This document shows positions 4,886 to 64,000 of a DNA stretch of 64,000 nt, in pieces. Source of the stretch: Methanolinea sp. (GTDB lineage Archaea; Halobacteriota; Methanomicrobia; Methanomicrobiales; Methanospirillaceae). The notes beneath the pieces are model-generated. The model was not told where the DNA came from. It was given only the letters and a program-made list of their open reading frames with translations, and searched no databases. The position numbers and the translations under genes are program-made. Location: contig JADFCY010000003.1 of NCBI GenBank assembly GCA_018263335.1, positions 62,001 through 126,000 on the forward strand, given 5' to 3'. How positions within the stretch are numbered: position 1 is the first letter of the stretch; each line of letters opens with the position of its first letter.

Positions 4886-6198
4886 GACCAGTTCCTCACG
4901 CACTCCATGGCCTGGCGTATGCAGCCGTCCATGTTCAGGTACTCAAACCTTGAGAACCTCCCGACAAGGGTGATCCCCTTCGCCTGGAAAAATTCCCGGA
5001 TGATCCTGATATTCTCAGGGTATGCAAGGTCGTATACCACGTAGGCAAACTTCTGATGGTCCACCGCGGTATGGACCACCTGTTCCGGGGTGAGGAATCC
5101 CATCCGCTCGAGGGATTCAATCACGTGACTGACGAGATCGCTATCGGTCATGCGGGAGACTTCGTCGCCTTCGTTGTAGGTGATCTCGGCCAGGATGCCC
5201 GCATGACCCGCGGGGGCCACATGGCTGCTGAAATTGGAGGGAAACGAGATCCGGTTCGCGAGGCTCTGTTCCCTGTCAGGGATGTAGAGCCATGAAATAT
5301 CGGGGACCGTCCCCCTGATCCCCACCTGCACGCAGCAGACCGAGTTGTAGCGGAGGGCACGTATCGCCTCCTGCACCCTCACCGGGACATCATCGAGGCA
5401 GGGCATGAGGTGCGGGAGTGGGATGGTGCTGATCACCCTGTCTCCCCGGCTCGTCCGTTTCCCGTCACTGGCTTCCCAGGCGCCGTCCCTGAATGCAAGC
5501 GATCGGACAGGAAAACCAGTCACTATGCAGTCCTCGATTCCACTGGCAATGGATGCGACCAGGGCCTCTATCCCGCCTTCTGCCGGGTAGGTGAAGACCG
5601 ACTGGTGGGTGTACCCCTCCGTCTCTATTCCTATGGCAGATCTTATCACGTCTTCGACCGGGGGCCTCGGCACTCTCCCCTCGACCCAGTGTGCAGACAT
5701 TGATGCCGGGGGATAGTTCCAGATCTTTTCGTTGTATGGAATCATGTAGAGATCGGCGATCCCCTTCCCGAACGTGGCGTATATCCATTCTGCGAAATTG
5801 GCAGGAGGAGGGATCTCCCCCTTCTCGGACTTTACGTAGGTCTTGATGAATTCATTGATGCAGAAGAAGAGATCGTCCTTTGGAAGGGAGGCGAGGCCGT
5901 TCTCGAACGGATATTTCACCAGGATGTCCCTGTACATGATCCTGGTGTTCCTCGTCCGCTTCTCCCGGTTTGAGGAAAGGACGTTCTGCATGAATTCGAG
6001 GACCTCTGTGTCTCTCGAGAAGATGATATGCGACCCGCCAGTATCGAACGTGAACCCGTTCTCTGTCCGGGAACGACAGAGCCCACCGATCCGCTCTTCA
6101 GCCTCGAGGACCGTCACCTGCTGTCCGCGCCTGCGGAGCAGGTGTGCGAGGGTGATGCCGGAAAGACCCCCTCCCAGGATGAGTGTGCGCACGAGCAT
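4882..6198 (-). CDS. UDP-galactopyranose mutase-like FAD-dependent oxidoreductase
   Basis: 438 residues. An N-terminal dinucleotide-binding motif (LILGGGLSGITLAHLL) is followed by the FAD-contacting EAEERIGGLCRS and FDTGGSHIIF; MIPYNEKIWNYPP resembles the mutase/amine-oxidase family. The C-terminal LVGRFSRFEYLNMDG closes the FAD site. Relatives either isomerise UDP-galactose to its furanose form or belong to protoporphyrinogen-oxidase-like flavoproteins. Its coupling to two glycosyltransferases favours a sugar-nucleotide or glycan role, but mutase activity is inferred, not shown. It is the first gene of the block. Confidence 0.8.
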   Translation of the reverse strand: MLVRTLILGGGLSGITLAHLLRRRGQQVTVLEAEERIGGLCRSRTENGFTFDTGGSHIIFSRDTEVLEFMQNVLSSNREKRTRNTRIMYRDILVKYPFENGLASLPKDDLFFCINEFIKTYVKSEKGEIPPPANFAEWIYATFGKGIADLYMIPYNEKIWNYPPASMSAHWVEGRVPRPPVEDVIRSAIGIETEGYTHQSVFTYPAEGGIEALVASIASGIEDCIVTGFPVRSLAFRDGAWEASDGKRTSRGDRVISTIPLPHLMPCLDDVPVRVQEAIRALRYNSVCCVQVGIRGTVPDISWLYIPDREQSLANRISFPSNFSSHVAPAGHAGILAEITYNEGDEVSRMTDSDLVSHVIESLERMGFLTPEQVVHTAVDHQKFAYVVYDLAYPENIRIIREFFQAKGITLVGRFSRFEYLNMDGCIRQAMECVRNWS

Positions 6199-6300
6199 AG
6201 TATTTTACCGGAGGGATTATATGATTGACCATCCACGGGTCTATTCTCCTGCCTCACATTAAAAAAATGGATGGGATTGCCGGATCAAAGAGTTGAACGC

Positions 6301-6753
6301 ATGACCCTTCACGAATACTCATATAAGAGGGATTTCACAAAGACGCCTGAACCTCCCGGAACCGTCGAAAGAGGGACGGGTGACCCTGTCTTCGTTGTCC
6401 AGGAACACCACTCACGCCACCGCCATTTCGACTTTCGCCTGGAACACGAAGGAGTGCTTGTCTCCTGGGCAGTGCCAAAAGGTGTTCCCGAGTTGCCGGG
6501 AAATAAGCACCTGGCGGTCCGGACCGAAGACCATCCGCTCGCGTATGCGGATTTCGAGGGAAGCATTCCCGAGGGGGAGTATGGTGCGGGCGAAGTCGAG
6601 ATATGGGACAAAGGAACCTTCAATCTCATGAACTGGGAAGAGGACCGCATTGAGGTCGTACTGCAGGGAAACCGGCTCAGTGGAAGGTATATCCTGGTCA
6701 GGTTCAAACGTGCGGGAGAGAACGAATGGCTGTTATTCAAGGCAAAGGGGTAA
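6301..6753 (+). CDS. Standalone LigD-type 3'-phosphoesterase
   Basis: 150 residues, a single phosphoesterase domain as found at the N-terminus of bacterial LigD but without ligase or polymerase modules. The motif HHSRHRHFDFRLEHEG supplies H36, H42, D44 and R46, and H78 lies in RTEDHPLAYADFEG. These have the same spacing as the catalytic residues known from Pseudomonas LigD (H42, H48, D50, R52, H84). The family trims 3'-phosphates and 3'-ribonucleosides from DNA ends to give 3'-OH. Start ATG 6301 is chosen over ATG 6271 because the conserved N-terminus begins there. No partner repair gene is adjacent. Confidence 0.9.
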   Translation: MTLHEYSYKRDFTKTPEPPGTVERGTGDPVFVVQEHHSRHRHFDFRLEHEGVLVSWAVPKGVPELPGNKHLAVRTEDHPLAYADFEGSIPEGEYGAGEVEIWDKGTFNLMNWEEDRIEVVLQGNRLSGRYILVRFKRAGENEWLLFKAKG

Positions 6754-6800
6754 ACGGCTGGTTCACTGCATGAATTGGGAAAATAAAAAAGAGATCTCTT

Positions 6801-7304
6801 TTATTTCGCGCTCTTCACCGTCTTTGTGCCGCGGAGTATGGCGATCTTTCCTGTCCGGACCAGCTCCTTGACTCCGTACTGGCGCAACAGCTTCTCGAGG
6901 GCATCGATCTTTTCTGTGTCCCCCGTCACAGAGAGGACAACAGTCCTGCTGCCCACATCGATGATCTGTGCCCGGAAGATGCTTGCGATCTGCATGATCT
7001 CAGCCCGGCTGCTCCCTGGCTCGGCGGTGACCTTGATGAGCGCGAGTTCGCGCTCCACGCGGTCGTTTTCGGTGATGTCGGAGACCTTGATCACGTCGAT
7101 GAGCTTGTTCAACTGCTTCATCACCTGCTCAATCTGGGCGTCGTCGCCGATGCAGACGATGGTGATCCTGCTCATGTCCGGCTCCTCGCAGGTGCCGACC
7201 GCGAGGCTCTCGATATTGAAGCCGCGCCGCGAGAAGAGCCCGGTGACCCTGGAGAGGACACCCGGTTTATTCTCCACCAGCACGCTCAGGGTATGCGGCT
7301 TCAT
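6801..7304 (-). CDS. ilvN: Acetolactate synthase, small regulatory subunit
   Basis: 167 residues. An N-terminal ACT domain ([19 protein letters not shown], then [10 protein letters not shown]) binds valine in this family and controls the catalytic subunit. The C-terminal domain ([20 protein letters not shown] to [12 protein letters not shown]) is the usual ALS small-subunit partner. The start ATG overlaps the ilvB stop by four bases, so the two subunits are probably made in a coupled way. The frame is open for a further 500 bases upstream, but that is a shadow of ilvB. Confidence 0.95.
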
Positions 7305-8977
7305 TCGCTGTAACCCCCGATCATCTCGTTGATGGCAGCTCCTGCCGGCACCATGGGGAAGACGTTCTCCTCGCGCTCGACCCGGAAGTCCAGGATGAAC
7401 GGGCCATCGGTCTCGATCGCCGCCTGGAGGGCAGGTTTCACATCCTTTGAGTCCTCGACCCTCATACCATCGATCCCATACGCATTCGCGATCTTCACGA
7501 AGTCGACAGCCGGAAGTTCCGTGTAAGAGTACCGGCGATCGTAAAAGAGCTCCTGCCACTGCCGGACCATCCCGAGGAACCGGTTGTTCAGGATGGCAAC
7601 CTTGACAGGGATCTGGTAGTGGGAGACTGTCCCAAGCTCCTGGATGTTCATCTGGAAGCTCCCGTCGCCGGCAATATCGAAGACCACCTGATCGGGACGG
7701 GCAAAGTGGGCGCCCATCGCCGCGGGGAAGCCGTATCCCATTGTACCGAGGCCCCCAGAGGTGATCCAGGTCCGGGGATGGCGGAAACAGTAATACTGGG
7801 CAGTCCACATCTGGTTCTGCCCCACCTCGCTGACGATGATGCCCTCACCCGCAAGGAGTTCCGAGAGCTGCTCGATCACGAACTGCGGACGCAGCACCCC
7901 GTCCCTTGGATATCTCATCGGGAATTTCTCCTTCCAGGTGCGGATGCGGGAGAGCCACCGTTCGTATTCTTTCCTCTTCTGGATGCGCTCCCGCATTTCC
8001 TGGAGAACTGCTCTCGAATCCCCGACGATAGGCACGTCTACCCGCTTGTTCTTTCCAATCTCGGCGGGGTCGATGTCGACATGGATGATCCGGGCCTGGG
8101 ACGCGAATGTGTCCAGCTTGCCTGTCACCCGGTCATCGAACCTTACCCCGATGGCTATGAGGAGGTCGGACTCGGTGACCGCATAATTTGCATACCTGGT
8201 CCCATGCATGCCGAGCATCCCCAGGTTGAGGGGATGGTCGCACGGGATTGCCCCGATTCCCATCAGGGTGGTGGTCACCGGGATCCCCATCATCTCGGCA
8301 AGACTGACGAGTTCCGCCGAGGCGTTCGAGCTGATCACGCCACCTCCCACGTAGAGGAGGGGCCGCTCGGCCTCCATCATCATCTCGATTGCCTTGTCGA
8401 TCTGCCTGGTGTGCCCCCTGTAGGTCGGCTGGTATCCCCGGAGGTTCACCTGCTCCGACTCGGGGTATTCGTATTCGATCTCCTTTGTGCTGACATCCTT
8501 CGGGAGGTCAATCAGGACAGGTCCCGGTCTTCCTGTGCGCGAGATGTAGAACGCCTCCCTGATGACGTGCCCCAGTTCCTCGGTCCTCTTGACGAGATAG
8601 TTGTGCTTGGTGATGGGCAGCGTGATGCCGGTGATATCAGACTCCTGGAAGGCATCGTTTCCAAGGAGGCTTGTCGGGACCTGTCCGGTCAGCGCCACAA
8701 TGGAAACTGAGTCCATGTAGGCAGTTGCGATCCCGGTCACCAGGTTGCATGCCCCCGGACCGGAGGTGGCCAGGCATACGCCAACCCTGCCGCTGGCGCG
8801 GGCGAACCCGTCAGCGGCATGGGCGGCTGCCTGTTCATGCCGTACAAGGATGTGCCGCAATGACGAATTGTAGAGTTCATCATAGATCGGCAACACTACA
8901 CCGCCGGGGTAGCCGAATATTGTCTCCACCCCTTCGCGTTGCAGCCCTTCAATGAGTATTTTTGCTCCGGTCTTCAT
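7301..8977 (-). CDS. ilvB: Acetolactate synthase, large catalytic subunit
   Basis: 558 residues, normal for the family. It condenses two pyruvates to acetolactate, or pyruvate with 2-oxobutyrate to acetohydroxybutyrate, in valine/leucine and isoleucine synthesis. The thiamine-diphosphate-activating glutamate lies in [17 protein letters not shown] (E48), the FAD/central domain in residues ~190-330, and the cofactor-binding motif is [16 protein letters not shown]. Its first 29 bases overlap the end of the citramalate/isopropylmalate synthase gene; GAGG seven bases before the ATG supports this start. 2-oxobutyrate made from citramalate would be a direct substrate. Confidence 0.96.
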
Positions 8978-10464
8978 TCTCTTCCCTCAGTAGTCTGTTC
9001 ATGCCGGCGATCACCGCTTCGACGCTTGCCATGATGATGTCCGTGCGGGCGCCGCGAGACGTAATTATCTTTCCGTCCTTACTTAATCTTACCGTCACAT
9101 CCACGAGCGCGTCTGTTCCCCCGTGGATTGCGTCGACGTGGTACTCCTCGAGCCGTATGTCGGCCACGGCGGCAACCGATCTCCGGAGGGCTTCCATGGC
9201 CGCATCGACAGGCCCCGCACCCGTGGAGGCTCCCGTCACCTCTTCTCCCTTCACATCCATTGTCACCGAGGCGGTGGGAGTGACGTTGCTCCCGCTTACG
9301 ACGGTGAACTGCTTCATCTTCAGCACCGGCCGGCATTCGATGGCCATCACCGCTTCGGCAACGGCGATGAGATCCGTGTCGGTGATCCTCGTCCCCTTGT
9401 CCCCAAGTGCCTTGATCCTCTTCAGGATCTCCTTCAACTGGTTCTCGTCGGGATGATAGTGCATCTCTGCGAGCGCCGCCTCGATCGAGGCCGATCCCGA
9501 GTGCTTCCCGAGCATGATACGCCGCTTTCTCCCGACGCGCTCGGGGGGCACTGGCTCGTAAGTGCTCGGTTCCCGGAGGACGCCGTGGGCATGGATGCCG
9601 CTCTCGTGGGTGAATGCCATCTCCCCCACGATGGCCTTGTTGGTGGGGAGCGGGACTCCTGTCATCCTTGAAACGAGCGAGGAGAGGTGGTAGATCTCCC
9701 CTGTCTTGATCCCGGTAGGATACTGGTAGAGGAGTTCGAGCGCCATCACCAGCTCCTCAAGTGGGGTATTCCCCGCGCGCTCCCCGATGCCGTTCACCGT
9801 CACATGTGCACACGTCGCGCCTGCTCTCAACGCGGCGACCGTGTTTGCCATTGCCATCCCCAGGTCGTCATGGCAGTGGATGCTCAGGGGTGCAAGGCAG
9901 AGGTGCGGGATCACCTCGGCTACGCGTTCGGGTGTCAGAAGGCCTACCGTGTCGCAGAAGCAGAGACGTTCTGCTCCGCGCTCCAGGCCGCCGGCGTAGA
10001 TCTCTCGGACAAACACCGGGTCGGCCCTTGACGCGTCCTCGCCCGAGAGCTCGACGATGAGCCCCCGCTCCCGCGCATAGGTGACTGCAGAGAACGCCAT
10101 CTCGCATATCTGCGCCCTGGTCTTCCTCATCTTCTTCTCTATGTGCAGGTCGCTCACAGGTATGACGAGGTGGACCGAGTCAGCGCCATAATCGGCGGCA
10201 TAATCGATGTCCTGGACTACCGCCCTGACATATGTACAGACTTCCGCCTTGAGGCCCGCATCGGAGATGAGCCGGAGGGCTTCCCGTTCTCCATCTGATG
10301 CCGCAACGGAGCCGACTTCCACCACGTGCACCCCGATATCAGAGAGCATCGTGGCGATCTCAAGCTTCTGACCGGGATTCAGCGAAACGCCCGGGGTCTG
10401 CTCCCCATCCCGGAGAGTGGTGTCGAAAAACCGGATGTTACCGGGGAATAAAACGATCTGTCAT
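8949..10464 (-). CDS. cimA: Citramalate/2-isopropylmalate synthase family, apparent 1-base frameshift near the start
   Basis: The body (ATG 10349 to stop, 466 codons) has the LeuA-type TIM barrel ([34 protein letters not shown]) and the C-terminal regulatory domain ([13 protein letters not shown]). Catalytic [14 protein letters not shown] lies upstream of that ATG, in frame, but no ATG, GTG or TTG precedes it there. A GGTGG site and ATG at 10464 are in another frame (MTDRFIPR, stop); deleting one C from the C4 run at 10443-10446 joins them as [20 protein letters not shown]. The product condenses acetyl-CoA with pyruvate or 2-oxoisovalerate. Resemblance to methanogen CimA and the ilvBN context favour citramalate synthase; LeuA is possible. 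The frameshift may be a sequencing error, a true mutation or recoding. Confidence 0.8.
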
Positions 10465-61577: not shown

Positions 61578-62384
61578 TTAAGTGGGGGGTTTTACCGCCT
61601 CGGTGATGAAACGGACACCTTTTGGCGTCAGCTGGACTTCTTTTCTTACGAATACTACCTCTATTAAGCCAATTTTCAGCAGTTTTTCGTAGATCTCGTC
61701 CAGGTTCTTGTGAGAGATGTTCAACATGTTCTCGATGGCATGCGAGTCCATCCCGCTGTAGATCAGCATGCCTACCTGGGCGGAGAGTGGGTCAAGTTCC
61801 TCTCCGCTTGTCTCGAGGTCCTTTGTGGCGTCCTGAAGGAAATTAAGGAGGATTTGGAGTGTAGACAGGGGACAGAGCACATAACTGGTCACGACATCGG
61901 AGTTCTCAAGGTGATCTATTTTGACTACGTCCACCTGCTTTCCCTGCACCTCGCGCTTTGTCAGCTCGATCCCAGTGACCTCCTTGAGCGCCACAGACAC
62001 CTGCTTGTTCTGGCTCACGAACCAGATGCTGGTCTTGAGAACTGCGATTGCTCCCTTCTCCCAGGAGGCATTCGTCACCATCACGCCACCCCTGACGGCC
62101 GGTGACATGAAATAGGCAGTCAGCCGGTAGGCGCTGCAGGACATGATGATGAGCCGTTTCATTGCCTGGAGGACCTTCTCCACACTTGCGATCCGCAGCA
62201 CCTGGGGAGGATCTCCCTTGAGGGTGATGACGAGGAGGCTCTTTTTCTCCTCGAGGTCAATAACCGATTTGAATGGGATGGCCTTCCCAATCGGATCTGC
62301 GATTGTCATTGACTCCTGCTGAAGGTCGATCTTGCTGACTACCCATTTCCCCTCCTTCTCGATCTTGACCGGAACCACAGCCAC
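61578..62384 (-). CDS. cheF: Taxis protein CheF (CheY-archaellum adaptor)
   Basis: 268 residues from GTG 62384, which has GGAGGTG nine bases upstream. The first ~190 residues form a beta-rich domain (VVSKIDLQQESMTIADP, VSVALKEVTGIELTKREV), and the C-terminus has a winged-helix-like part (HAIENMLNISHKNLDEIYEKLLKIGLI). This matches the archaeal CheF family, which binds CheY-P and the ArlCDE motor ring. Its place between the archaellum and che genes agrees with this. Confidence 0.9.
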   Translation of the reverse strand: MAVVPVKIEKEGKWVVSKIDLQQESMTIADPIGKAIPFKSVIDLEEKKSLLVITLKGDPPQVLRIASVEKVLQAMKRLIIMSCSAYRLTAYFMSPAVRGGVMVTNASWEKGAIAVLKTSIWFVSQNKQVSVALKEVTGIELTKREVQGKQVDVVKIDHLENSDVVTSYVLCPLSTLQILLNFLQDATKDLETSGEELDPLSAQVGMLIYSGMDSHAIENMLNISHKNLDEIYEKLLKIGLIEVVFVRKEVQLTPKGVRFITEAVKPPT

Positions 62385-62406: not shown

Positions 62407-63564
62407 TCAGTCACTTTTTGGTCTTTTCGGCCTTAACAGGCTTTCGAGTTCACTCTGGAGATCAGATGCGGCAACCCTGGTATCTTTCAGATCCCTGATA
62501 AGGCTTGCATATTCGTTTTTCTTCTGGGATTTCGCATCCGCACGGAGCGATGCCATGAGGTCGTCGTCCTGCCCCCTGCCCTTGGAGAAAGAGAGCATGT
62601 CCTGTTCAGGGGAGAACGCGGGTGCGGAGGGCTTTGAAGGTTCGGATTTCCCTGGTGGAGAGACTGCCGATGGCTTTACAGCGTGTTCGCCTGGAGCCGC
62701 CGGTTTCAAAGGAGCAGGGGCCCCTTGCCCCTCCTCGAGATTCATTTCCTCGAGATCGAGGCCTTCAAGCCCCTCCATTGCATCTTCGGCAAGGTTTACC
62801 CCTTCATCCTGGTCAAGGGCAAGTTCGCCACTGTGTGCCTCGAGGATCTCCTTCACCTCGTCCGCATCGTTTGTCTCGTCAAGGATGATCGTATCGTTGT
62901 CGCCTGAAAGGGTGACGTCGAGATTGGAGAGATCTCCTTCCCCGGCATTCATTGTCTTGCCGGCGATCCCTGTATTGACGTCAAGTCCCGTGTCATCGAG
63001 GACGGAGAAATCCTCTGCGCCCTGGATCTCGTTGAGGAGGTCAGCGTTCAGGTCCTCTCCCACCAGCGCGCTGAACGGGTCAGAGGTCTTCTTCTTCTCG
63101 GCGGGCGCGGCATCGGGGATAATATCATCAAGGGATGCCACAGCTCCCCCCTGGATAGACTGGTCAAGGAGGGTGTCTATCTTCTTCTCCTGTGCCTCTA
63201 TCTCCGTCTTTGACTTTCGCTTCCTGGAAAAATCCCTGCCGAGCACTGCGAACGCTCCCTTGAGCGAGGAGAAGAAATCTCCGGCACTGCTCTTCTTGCC
63301 AGGGGACTTGGCCTTCTTCTCTTTCGGAGGTTTCTTTTCCTTCGCTTTTTTAGGGGCGGATTCCTGTGCAGTTGCTTTTTCCTTCGGGCTTTTCTCTCTT
63401 TCCAGCCGGGGCAGTCTCAAGCCGCCAGCAAGAAAAAGGACAAGCACCCCAAGTATTACTGCCCCTATAAGGAGGTAAAACACCGGGATATCGAAGAGCA
63501 GCATCAGGGAGCCGAAAATGATAATGACTGCAAAAAGGATAATTTTCAGGGTTGAATCCTTCAT
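62407..63564 (-). CDS. Unrecognised membrane-anchored charged protein between arlJ and cheF
   Basis: 385 residues. Two N-terminal membrane helices (~7-23 and ~27-47: IILFAVIIIFGSLMLL, LLIGAVILGVLVLFLAGG) are followed by a Lys/Glu-rich region (~55-125), a long acidic low-complexity stretch (~150-290), a Pro-rich segment and a C-terminal helix-rich part (SLRADAKSQKKNEYASLI). No enzyme motif is seen. The ATG follows the arlJ stop by one base with GGAG overlapping arlJ, so it is translated with the archaellum operon. A role linking motor and chemotaxis proteins is suggested by position only. Confidence 0.75.
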   Translation of the reverse strand: MKDSTLKIILFAVIIIFGSLMLLFDIPVFYLLIGAVILGVLVLFLAGGLRLPRLEREKSPKEKATAQESAPKKAKEKKPPKEKKAKSPGKKSSAGDFFSSLKGAFAVLGRDFSRKRKSKTEIEAQEKKIDTLLDQSIQGGAVASLDDIIPDAAPAEKKKTSDPFSALVGEDLNADLLNEIQGAEDFSVLDDTGLDVNTGIAGKTMNAGEGDLSNLDVTLSGDNDTIILDETNDADEVKEILEAHSGELALDQDEGVNLAEDAMEGLEGLDLEEMNLEEGQGAPAPLKPAAPGEHAVKPSAVSPPGKSEPSKPSAPAFSPEQDMLSFSKGRGQDDDLMASLRADAKSQKKNEYASLIRDLKDTRVAASDLQSELESLLRPKRPKSD

Positions 63565-63565
63565 T

Positions 63566-64000
63566 TCAGACTCCTTGGAAAGTAGGGATATTGAAGAACA
63601 TAGCAACTATTACCGGCGCGGCTATATAAATGATGCCGGTGACGATCAGGAGGAGGCTGCTGAAGAAATAGTACATATAACGGTCCCCCCCCATCACGAT
63701 CTTTCCTGCGATGACGTTCGAGATGGTAACTATTATAATCATAATCACAACAAAAAGGCCCACTTCCTGTTCAGGAAAGTTCACAAACATTGAGAGTCCG
63801 CTACCCCCGAGGGATCCCCCAACTGTGCCAGGATTACTCAGCGCCGATGAGGAAGACCCGAGTTGCGCAACTACCGATGAGATGGCCTTTGACATCATCA
63901 CCATGATGTGGTACAGGAAGAGGAATATCCCCACCATCATCGCGTGCATCGGGATAAGGAGGATGACGAATCCCATTGCGATCGAATTCCGCTTCTCACG
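63566..64000 (-). CDS. arlJ: Archaellum platform protein ArlJ (FlaJ), 5' part outside window
   Basis: The C-terminal 144 residues of the polytopic membrane platform. Membrane helices are IAMGFVILLIPMHAMMVGIFLFLYHIM, EVGLFVVIMIIIVTISNVIAG and YFFSSLLLIVTGIIYIAAPVIVAM, separated by a Ser/Gly-rich loop; MGGDRYMYYFF is typical of this family. With the ArlI ATPase it builds and turns the filament. The gene enters the window from the right; ATG 63976 is an internal codon. Confidence 0.9.
   Translation of the reverse strand, partial: REKRNSIAMGFVILLIPMHAMMVGIFLFLYHIMVMMSKAISSVVAQLGSSSSALSNPGTVGGSLGGSGLSMFVNFPEQEVGLFVVIMIIIVTISNVIAGKIVMGGDRYMYYFFSSLLLIVTGIIYIAAPVIVAMFFNIPTFQGV

Follow-up and report, generated by a model that had tools for sequence, protein, structure and literature searches.

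The archaellum gene cluster of Methanolinea sp. carries a gene without recognised domains, here called X, between the platform gene arlJ and the chemotaxis gene cheF. This position raises the question of whether X belongs to the archaellum motor or to the chemotaxis system, and what its product does there.

Location, coding status and cluster type

X is an ORF of 385 aa on the minus strand, with its ATG at 63564 and its stop codon ending at 62407. The arlJ stop codon ends at 63566, one base before X, and 22 bases separate X from the GTG start of cheF at 62384, placing X where the initial annotation had put it. The window, i.e. the whole 64,000-nucleotide stretch that was analysed, ends within the archaellum cluster; the remainder of the contig is L002 (window coordinate = L002 + 61000). 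Upstream of X, L002 includes genes for archaellin, an ArlD/E-like protein, ArlG, ArlF, ArlH, ArlI and ArlJ, and the genes downstream of X are cheF, cheY, cheB, cheA, cheC and cheD. The genes at the junction are:

61578 to 62384, minus strand: cheF, the next gene (Pfam CheF-arch, E=7.6e-16)
62407 to 63564, minus strand: gene X of the fla2 archaellum cluster, encoding a 385 aa protein with a predicted membrane tether, identified with its orthologues
63566 to 64000, minus strand: 3′ part of arlJ, encoding the 532 aa platform protein and running on to G000:C33:127164 (NCBIfam ArlJ, E=7.7e-215)

Differences at the three codon positions are 35/28/91 relative to the L003 orthologue (85% identical) and 64/57/188 relative to that of L004, a pattern of purifying selection indicating that X is a real coding gene. 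One orthologue (G022:C3:303398-304558) has a single in-frame TAA within the profile match, which may represent a pseudogene, a frameshift or an assembly error. In G001 (L071), a transposase-like gene (7479-8645) splits X into an N-terminal part (6080-7195) and the C-terminal module (8908-9273); the remaining arl and che genes appear intact, making this a natural disruption of X.

The cluster is of the fla2 type, with ArlG preceding ArlF in the order arlG-arlF-arlH-arlI-arlJ and no ArlC, in line with the G-F-H-I-J order set out in the relevant section of Desmond et al. 2007 (PMC1914349). In the same source, fla2 clusters are described as ending at flaJ, with hyp1/hyp2 (ArlD/E-like) between flaB and flaG. 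The accessible portions of the open-access archaellum literature mention no part downstream of arlJ, and the tables of the 2016 pilus census (PMC4858521) may list X as an unnamed arCOG.

Two further genes in or beside the cluster are of interest. The ArlD/E-like gene is separate from X (L002:7835-8749), and its product has no Pfam or NCBIfam match as a protein and matches Arch_fla_DE at E=0.0042 in the genome search; fla2 ArlD/E proteins are poorly covered by current models. Upstream of archaellin and beyond the window (L002:9568-10752, to which the same offset of 61000 applies) is a gene whose 394 aa product combines N-terminal membrane helices with HEAT repeats (HEAT_2, E=1.9e-84). Similar proteins also neighbour the arl cluster in L072 (824-1879), L092 (9151-10911) and L080 (15604-17661), and HEAT-like proteins beside che/fla genes have been described in haloarchaea (PMC2666748).

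Architecture and comparison with known families

An AlphaFold2 model of X, built on an alignment of twelve sequences, has helices at residues 2-23 and 27-45, forming a predicted membrane hairpin, and at 94-114, 119-137 and 233-248, and ends in a helix-turn-helix (331-361/366-377); pLDDT of these blocks is mostly 68-81. Most of the protein outside the helices is disordered, and overall confidence is low (mean pLDDT 54.7, pTM 0.18). Residues 49-137 carry a net charge of +13 and residues 138-325 one of -34. Model and charge counts agree with the layout originally proposed, namely two N-terminal membrane helices, a basic then acidic disordered region and a helical C-terminus. Conservation is strongest in the C-terminal module and otherwise concentrated in the membrane segment and a set of short motifs, with poorly conserved linkers between them:

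63421 to 63561, minus strand: N-terminal membrane hairpin, residues 2-48 (AlphaFold2 helices 2-23 and 27-45)
63148 to 63189, minus strand: motif KKIDtLLDqsixG, residues 126-139 (alignments)
63025 to 63081, minus strand: acidic motif DPFsaLvgeDLNaDLLneI, residues 162-180 (alignments)
62821 to 62880, minus strand: motif DETNDADEVKEILEAHxDEL, residues 229-248 (alignments; short helix predicted by AlphaFold2)
62431 to 62589, minus strand: C-terminal module FxxGxxxDDDLMAxLKSDxK...SLxRDLKDxKVxAxDLxxELExLL, residues 326-378 (profile search, HMM, AlphaFold2 helix-turn-helix)

In alignments, the counterpart of KKIDtLLDqsixG in most relatives beyond Methanomicrobiales is KEIDEKLEEV, and DDNLLxEMxTA, matched by eye, is possibly the counterpart of the acidic motif. 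The C-terminal module is the best-conserved part of the protein and the one that X has in common with its relatives across the phylum.

Neither the window protein nor 17 diverse members of the family reached threshold against any entry of Pfam, NCBIfam or PDB, in agreement with the earlier view that X has no recognised domain. Matches to LapA, FliL and assorted membrane segments vary between members and were set aside as composition-driven. FliL, a motor-associated protein of bacterial flagella, and LapA_dom resemble X in that their N-terminal membrane helix leads into a charged stretch, but the similarity (14.5 of 187 bits and 16.8 of 28 bits) is limited to those segments. In a PDB profile search the C-terminal module matched nothing well: the hits were tRNA synthetases (E 0.21 and 2.3), seemingly through their appended helix-turn-helix domains, and a protein annotated as putative type VI secretion (E 0.74), all regarded as chance or fold analogy.

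Derivation of X from a known cluster gene was rejected, as hhalign probabilities for X as a diverged ArlD/E, CheF, ArlH, ArlF or ArlG were ≤1.5%, on a par with scrambled controls. Against 33 fla2 ArlD/E proteins the probability was 0.1-0.3%, and Arch_fla_DE (PF04659) is absent from X, as is the FlaC_arch domain (PF05377) that defines ArlC. A hydrophobic N-terminal segment is present in 56/56 X family members versus 0/33 fla2 ArlD/E. The C-terminal tail of fla1 ArlCE was also considered, since SLLFIEQLKGKKIDKN resembles SLLRDLKGQKF, but the hhalign score of 12.7 is not significant, the best of 60 column-shuffled controls reaching 13.1. ArlC and ArlD/E are like X in being archaellum-specific accessory proteins of the cytoplasmic side encoded in arl clusters. 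They share no sequence or profile similarity with it, and X alone has a membrane anchor, as judged for ArlCDE from the part of PMC12024892 that describes them.

Distribution in Methanomicrobiales and across the phylum

Profile searches of 94 Methanomicrobiales genomes, each at least 80% complete, detected ArlJ in 77 and X in the identical 77, and all 17 genomes without ArlJ also lack X. The double negatives belong to several genera (g1, g3, g4, g10, g15 and g24), and this scatter indicates that arlJ and X were lost jointly and repeatedly. In 77/77 genomes X shares contig and strand with arlJ and lies downstream of it. Between the match ends there are 2-61 bases, with two exceptions: G025 (227) and G001, in which the transposase-like gene interrupts X. 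The orthologue in L025 was missed by BLAST yet is present. X therefore has both the cluster position and the co-occurrence with arl core genes of an archaellum gene, and belongs to a known machine as a near-constant part that had gone unrecognised. Two outcomes had been named beforehand as counting against a motor-linked role, namely that most archaellated relatives lack X or that X confidently matches a family of unrelated function; neither was encountered.

Beyond the order, the X profile matched the C-terminal module only, in ORFs mostly of 200-250 residues from family f9, and those inspected are directly 3′ of arlJ. Families f8 and f9 are probably Methanosarcinaceae and Archaeoglobaceae, judging from locus type and the published fla1/fla2 distribution. 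Shorter or diverged orthologues 3′ of arlJ in other families of the phylum share the layout and the C-terminal module (E down to 1e-19), and in further families the post-arlJ gene predicts an N-terminal membrane helix, in many cases a K-x-I-D-x-x-L motif, an acidic linker and a C-terminal LLRDLK module. An HMM built on 45 columns of this module (X-core) picks up the whole set, with the gene adjacent to arlJ in Archaeoglobaceae-, Methanosarcinaceae- and other-family loci, and recovers loci outside its training set, e.g. L044, L045, L071-L074, L081, L089, L117 and L118 (E 1e-14 to 1e-6). At E<1 it has no match in the fla1-type loci examined (L094-L096 and L114-L116).

In the second Methanosarcina-type locus and in families f10 and f23, the post-arlJ protein lacks a membrane helix and its X-core match is weak (best E 0.0035, L088) or absent. 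The Methanosarcina-type genes are L086:8307-9215, L087:10957-11946, L088:16458-17339, L102:2568-3491 and L103:1581-2372, and several of the products have repeated N-terminal amphipathic stretches (LKxLxxNGLKxL) and a helical tail; these are possibly a peripheral-membrane version of X. Those of f10 and f23 are small and acidic (L091:7990-8421, L092:8596-8946, L093:3676-4245, L110:3525-3977, L111:3426-3899, L112:1520-1930 and L113:1506-2045), with a conserved EWW motif in most and a helical tail (MEELGDVSAEELLELGR). The missing membrane helix in both sets (L086, L087, L102 and L103; L091-L093 and L110-L113) weakens any universal tether role.

The distribution of ArlC is complementary. FlaC_arch (PF05377) was found in 0/77 order genomes with X at a match cut-off of 1e-7, and in 5 of the 58 genomes outside the order that have an X-type ArlJ, versus 111 of the 112 with a fla1-type ArlJ only. 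In those five, the match falls outside the X-type cluster: it is on a different contig or at a distance of hundreds of kilobases, and in G308 it is in a neighbouring divergent cluster that runs on the opposite strand. Thus X is confined to fla2-type loci without ArlC, and fla1-type loci have ArlC and no X. The pattern tracks the deep fla1/fla2 split and hence reflects few independent events, so that X and ArlC represent alternative parts lists rather than a proven replacement.

Possible roles of X in the motor

Co-occurrence with ArlJ makes membership of X in the motor well supported, bearing out the initial annotation in proposing a motor-linked component not yet described. A tether function is proposed because X combines a membrane anchor encoded next to arlJ with a flexible arm and conserved motifs, in clusters whose ArlD/E proteins have no membrane segment. 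With a probability of roughly 0.55, X is an overlooked structural part of the Halobacteriota fla2 archaellum motor that tethers its cytoplasmic side to the membrane; the mechanism and partner given here are those that we infer.

The N-terminal hairpin, or a single helix, would sit in the membrane beside the ArlJ platform, and the basic stretch after it suggests that the remainder faces the cytoplasm. This remainder would form a long, acidic, flexible arm with several short conserved helical motifs and the helix-turn-helix module at its end, and would most likely dock onto the soluble ArlD/E-like ring protein, ArlH or ArlI. Docking would fasten the motor's cytoplasmic part to the membrane and give X an anchoring or stator-side function, compatible with the scaffold or torque-anchoring role suggested at the outset. 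X may then occupy the position taken by ArlC in fla1 motors, and supply the membrane link that ArlX provides in Crenarchaeota.

ArlX (FlaX) is one of the closest known parallels: both proteins are archaellum-specific, are encoded in fla2-type clusters and have an N-terminal membrane helix with a cytoplasmic remainder, the orientation being predicted for X. They differ in gene position, as arlX is located between arlB and arlG in Crenarchaea whereas X follows arlJ. X is also mostly disordered whereas ArlX has a ring-forming domain, its hallmark being an oligomeric cytoplasmic ring that binds ArlI and ArlH, and X co-exists with a soluble ArlD/E-like protein. According to PMC8978795 and PMC12024892, a transmembrane segment anchors ArlX, which ArlJ stabilises and which is believed to encircle the motor, and ArlCDE have no tether; the euryarchaeal ArlCDE anchor is treated there as unsettled, with a polar cap proposed. 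The job of crenarchaeal ArlX might be split in euryarchaeal fla2 motors between two proteins, a soluble ring component of the ArlD/E-like kind and X as a distinct, flexible membrane tether, a form of torque anchoring undescribed for any archaellum, but this extension is tentative and somewhat doubtful.

X could alternatively help to assemble or regulate ArlJ/ArlI, for example in ArlJ insertion or in the switch from assembly to rotation, and not be a standing tether. Its place directly after arlJ everywhere and its flexible, motif-bearing architecture would suit a transient regulator, and crenarchaeal ArlX is itself required for assembly, according to the portion of PMC12024892 that deals with it. 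As X has no enzymatic or known regulatory domain, and fla1 machines assemble without it, this explanation is unlikely.

A role in polar localisation or polar-cap attachment, by which X would set the motor at the cell pole, is less likely still. A membrane anchor with a long acidic disordered arm carrying docking motifs is typical of polar organisers, and the polar cap is the euryarchaeal motor anchor put forward in the pertinent section of PMC8978795. Against this, no polar-cap proteins are known, and polar caps have been described in fla1 organisms (Pyrococcus and Thermococcus) outside the phylum searched here.

The position of X next to cheF had suggested a role at the archaellum-chemotaxis junction, and conserved arlJ-X-cheF synteny had been named as a check. 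Within the order such synteny holds, the arrangement being present in all of the best thirty loci, contig permitting. Across the phylum, arlJ-X is retained, and beyond the order genes other than cheF usually come after X, leaving X-cheF as mainly a feature of Methanomicrobiales. CheF, which connects CheY to ArlCDE, has its own Pfam family (DUF439) and follows che genes, whereas X follows arlJ. X is retained without CheF in G002, G005, G129, G155, G164 and G181, and without any CheW-domain protein in G129 (completeness 96%) and G155 (86%); no chemotaxis gene comes after arlJ-X in L072 (G002), L118 (G005) or L117 (G129). The presence of X is thus not tied to che genes. Together with the phylum-wide arlJ-X pair, this places X in the arl operon and makes its contact with cheF a local arrangement; cheF is probably a neighbour from a different functional unit. 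A role as adaptor between the motor and CheF or receptor arrays, as first envisaged from the near-constant arlJ-X-cheF order, is therefore very improbable for a protein that persists without CheF and CheW-domain proteins and has no profile similarity to CheF, and receptor-array binding is disfavoured with it.

How the cytoplasmic archaellum motor is anchored while the filament rotates is unsettled for Euryarchaeota, whose ArlC/D/E have no membrane anchor. Present in every sampled Methanomicrobiales fla2 archaellum, with a predicted membrane anchor and with ArlC missing, X provides a specific gene for this question. If X is indeed a membrane tether of the fla2 motor, it would add to the parts by which a well-studied machine is defined, and fla2 euryarchaeal motors would be mechanically distinct from the fla1 motors of Haloferax, Pyrococcus and Methanococcus on which most models are based.
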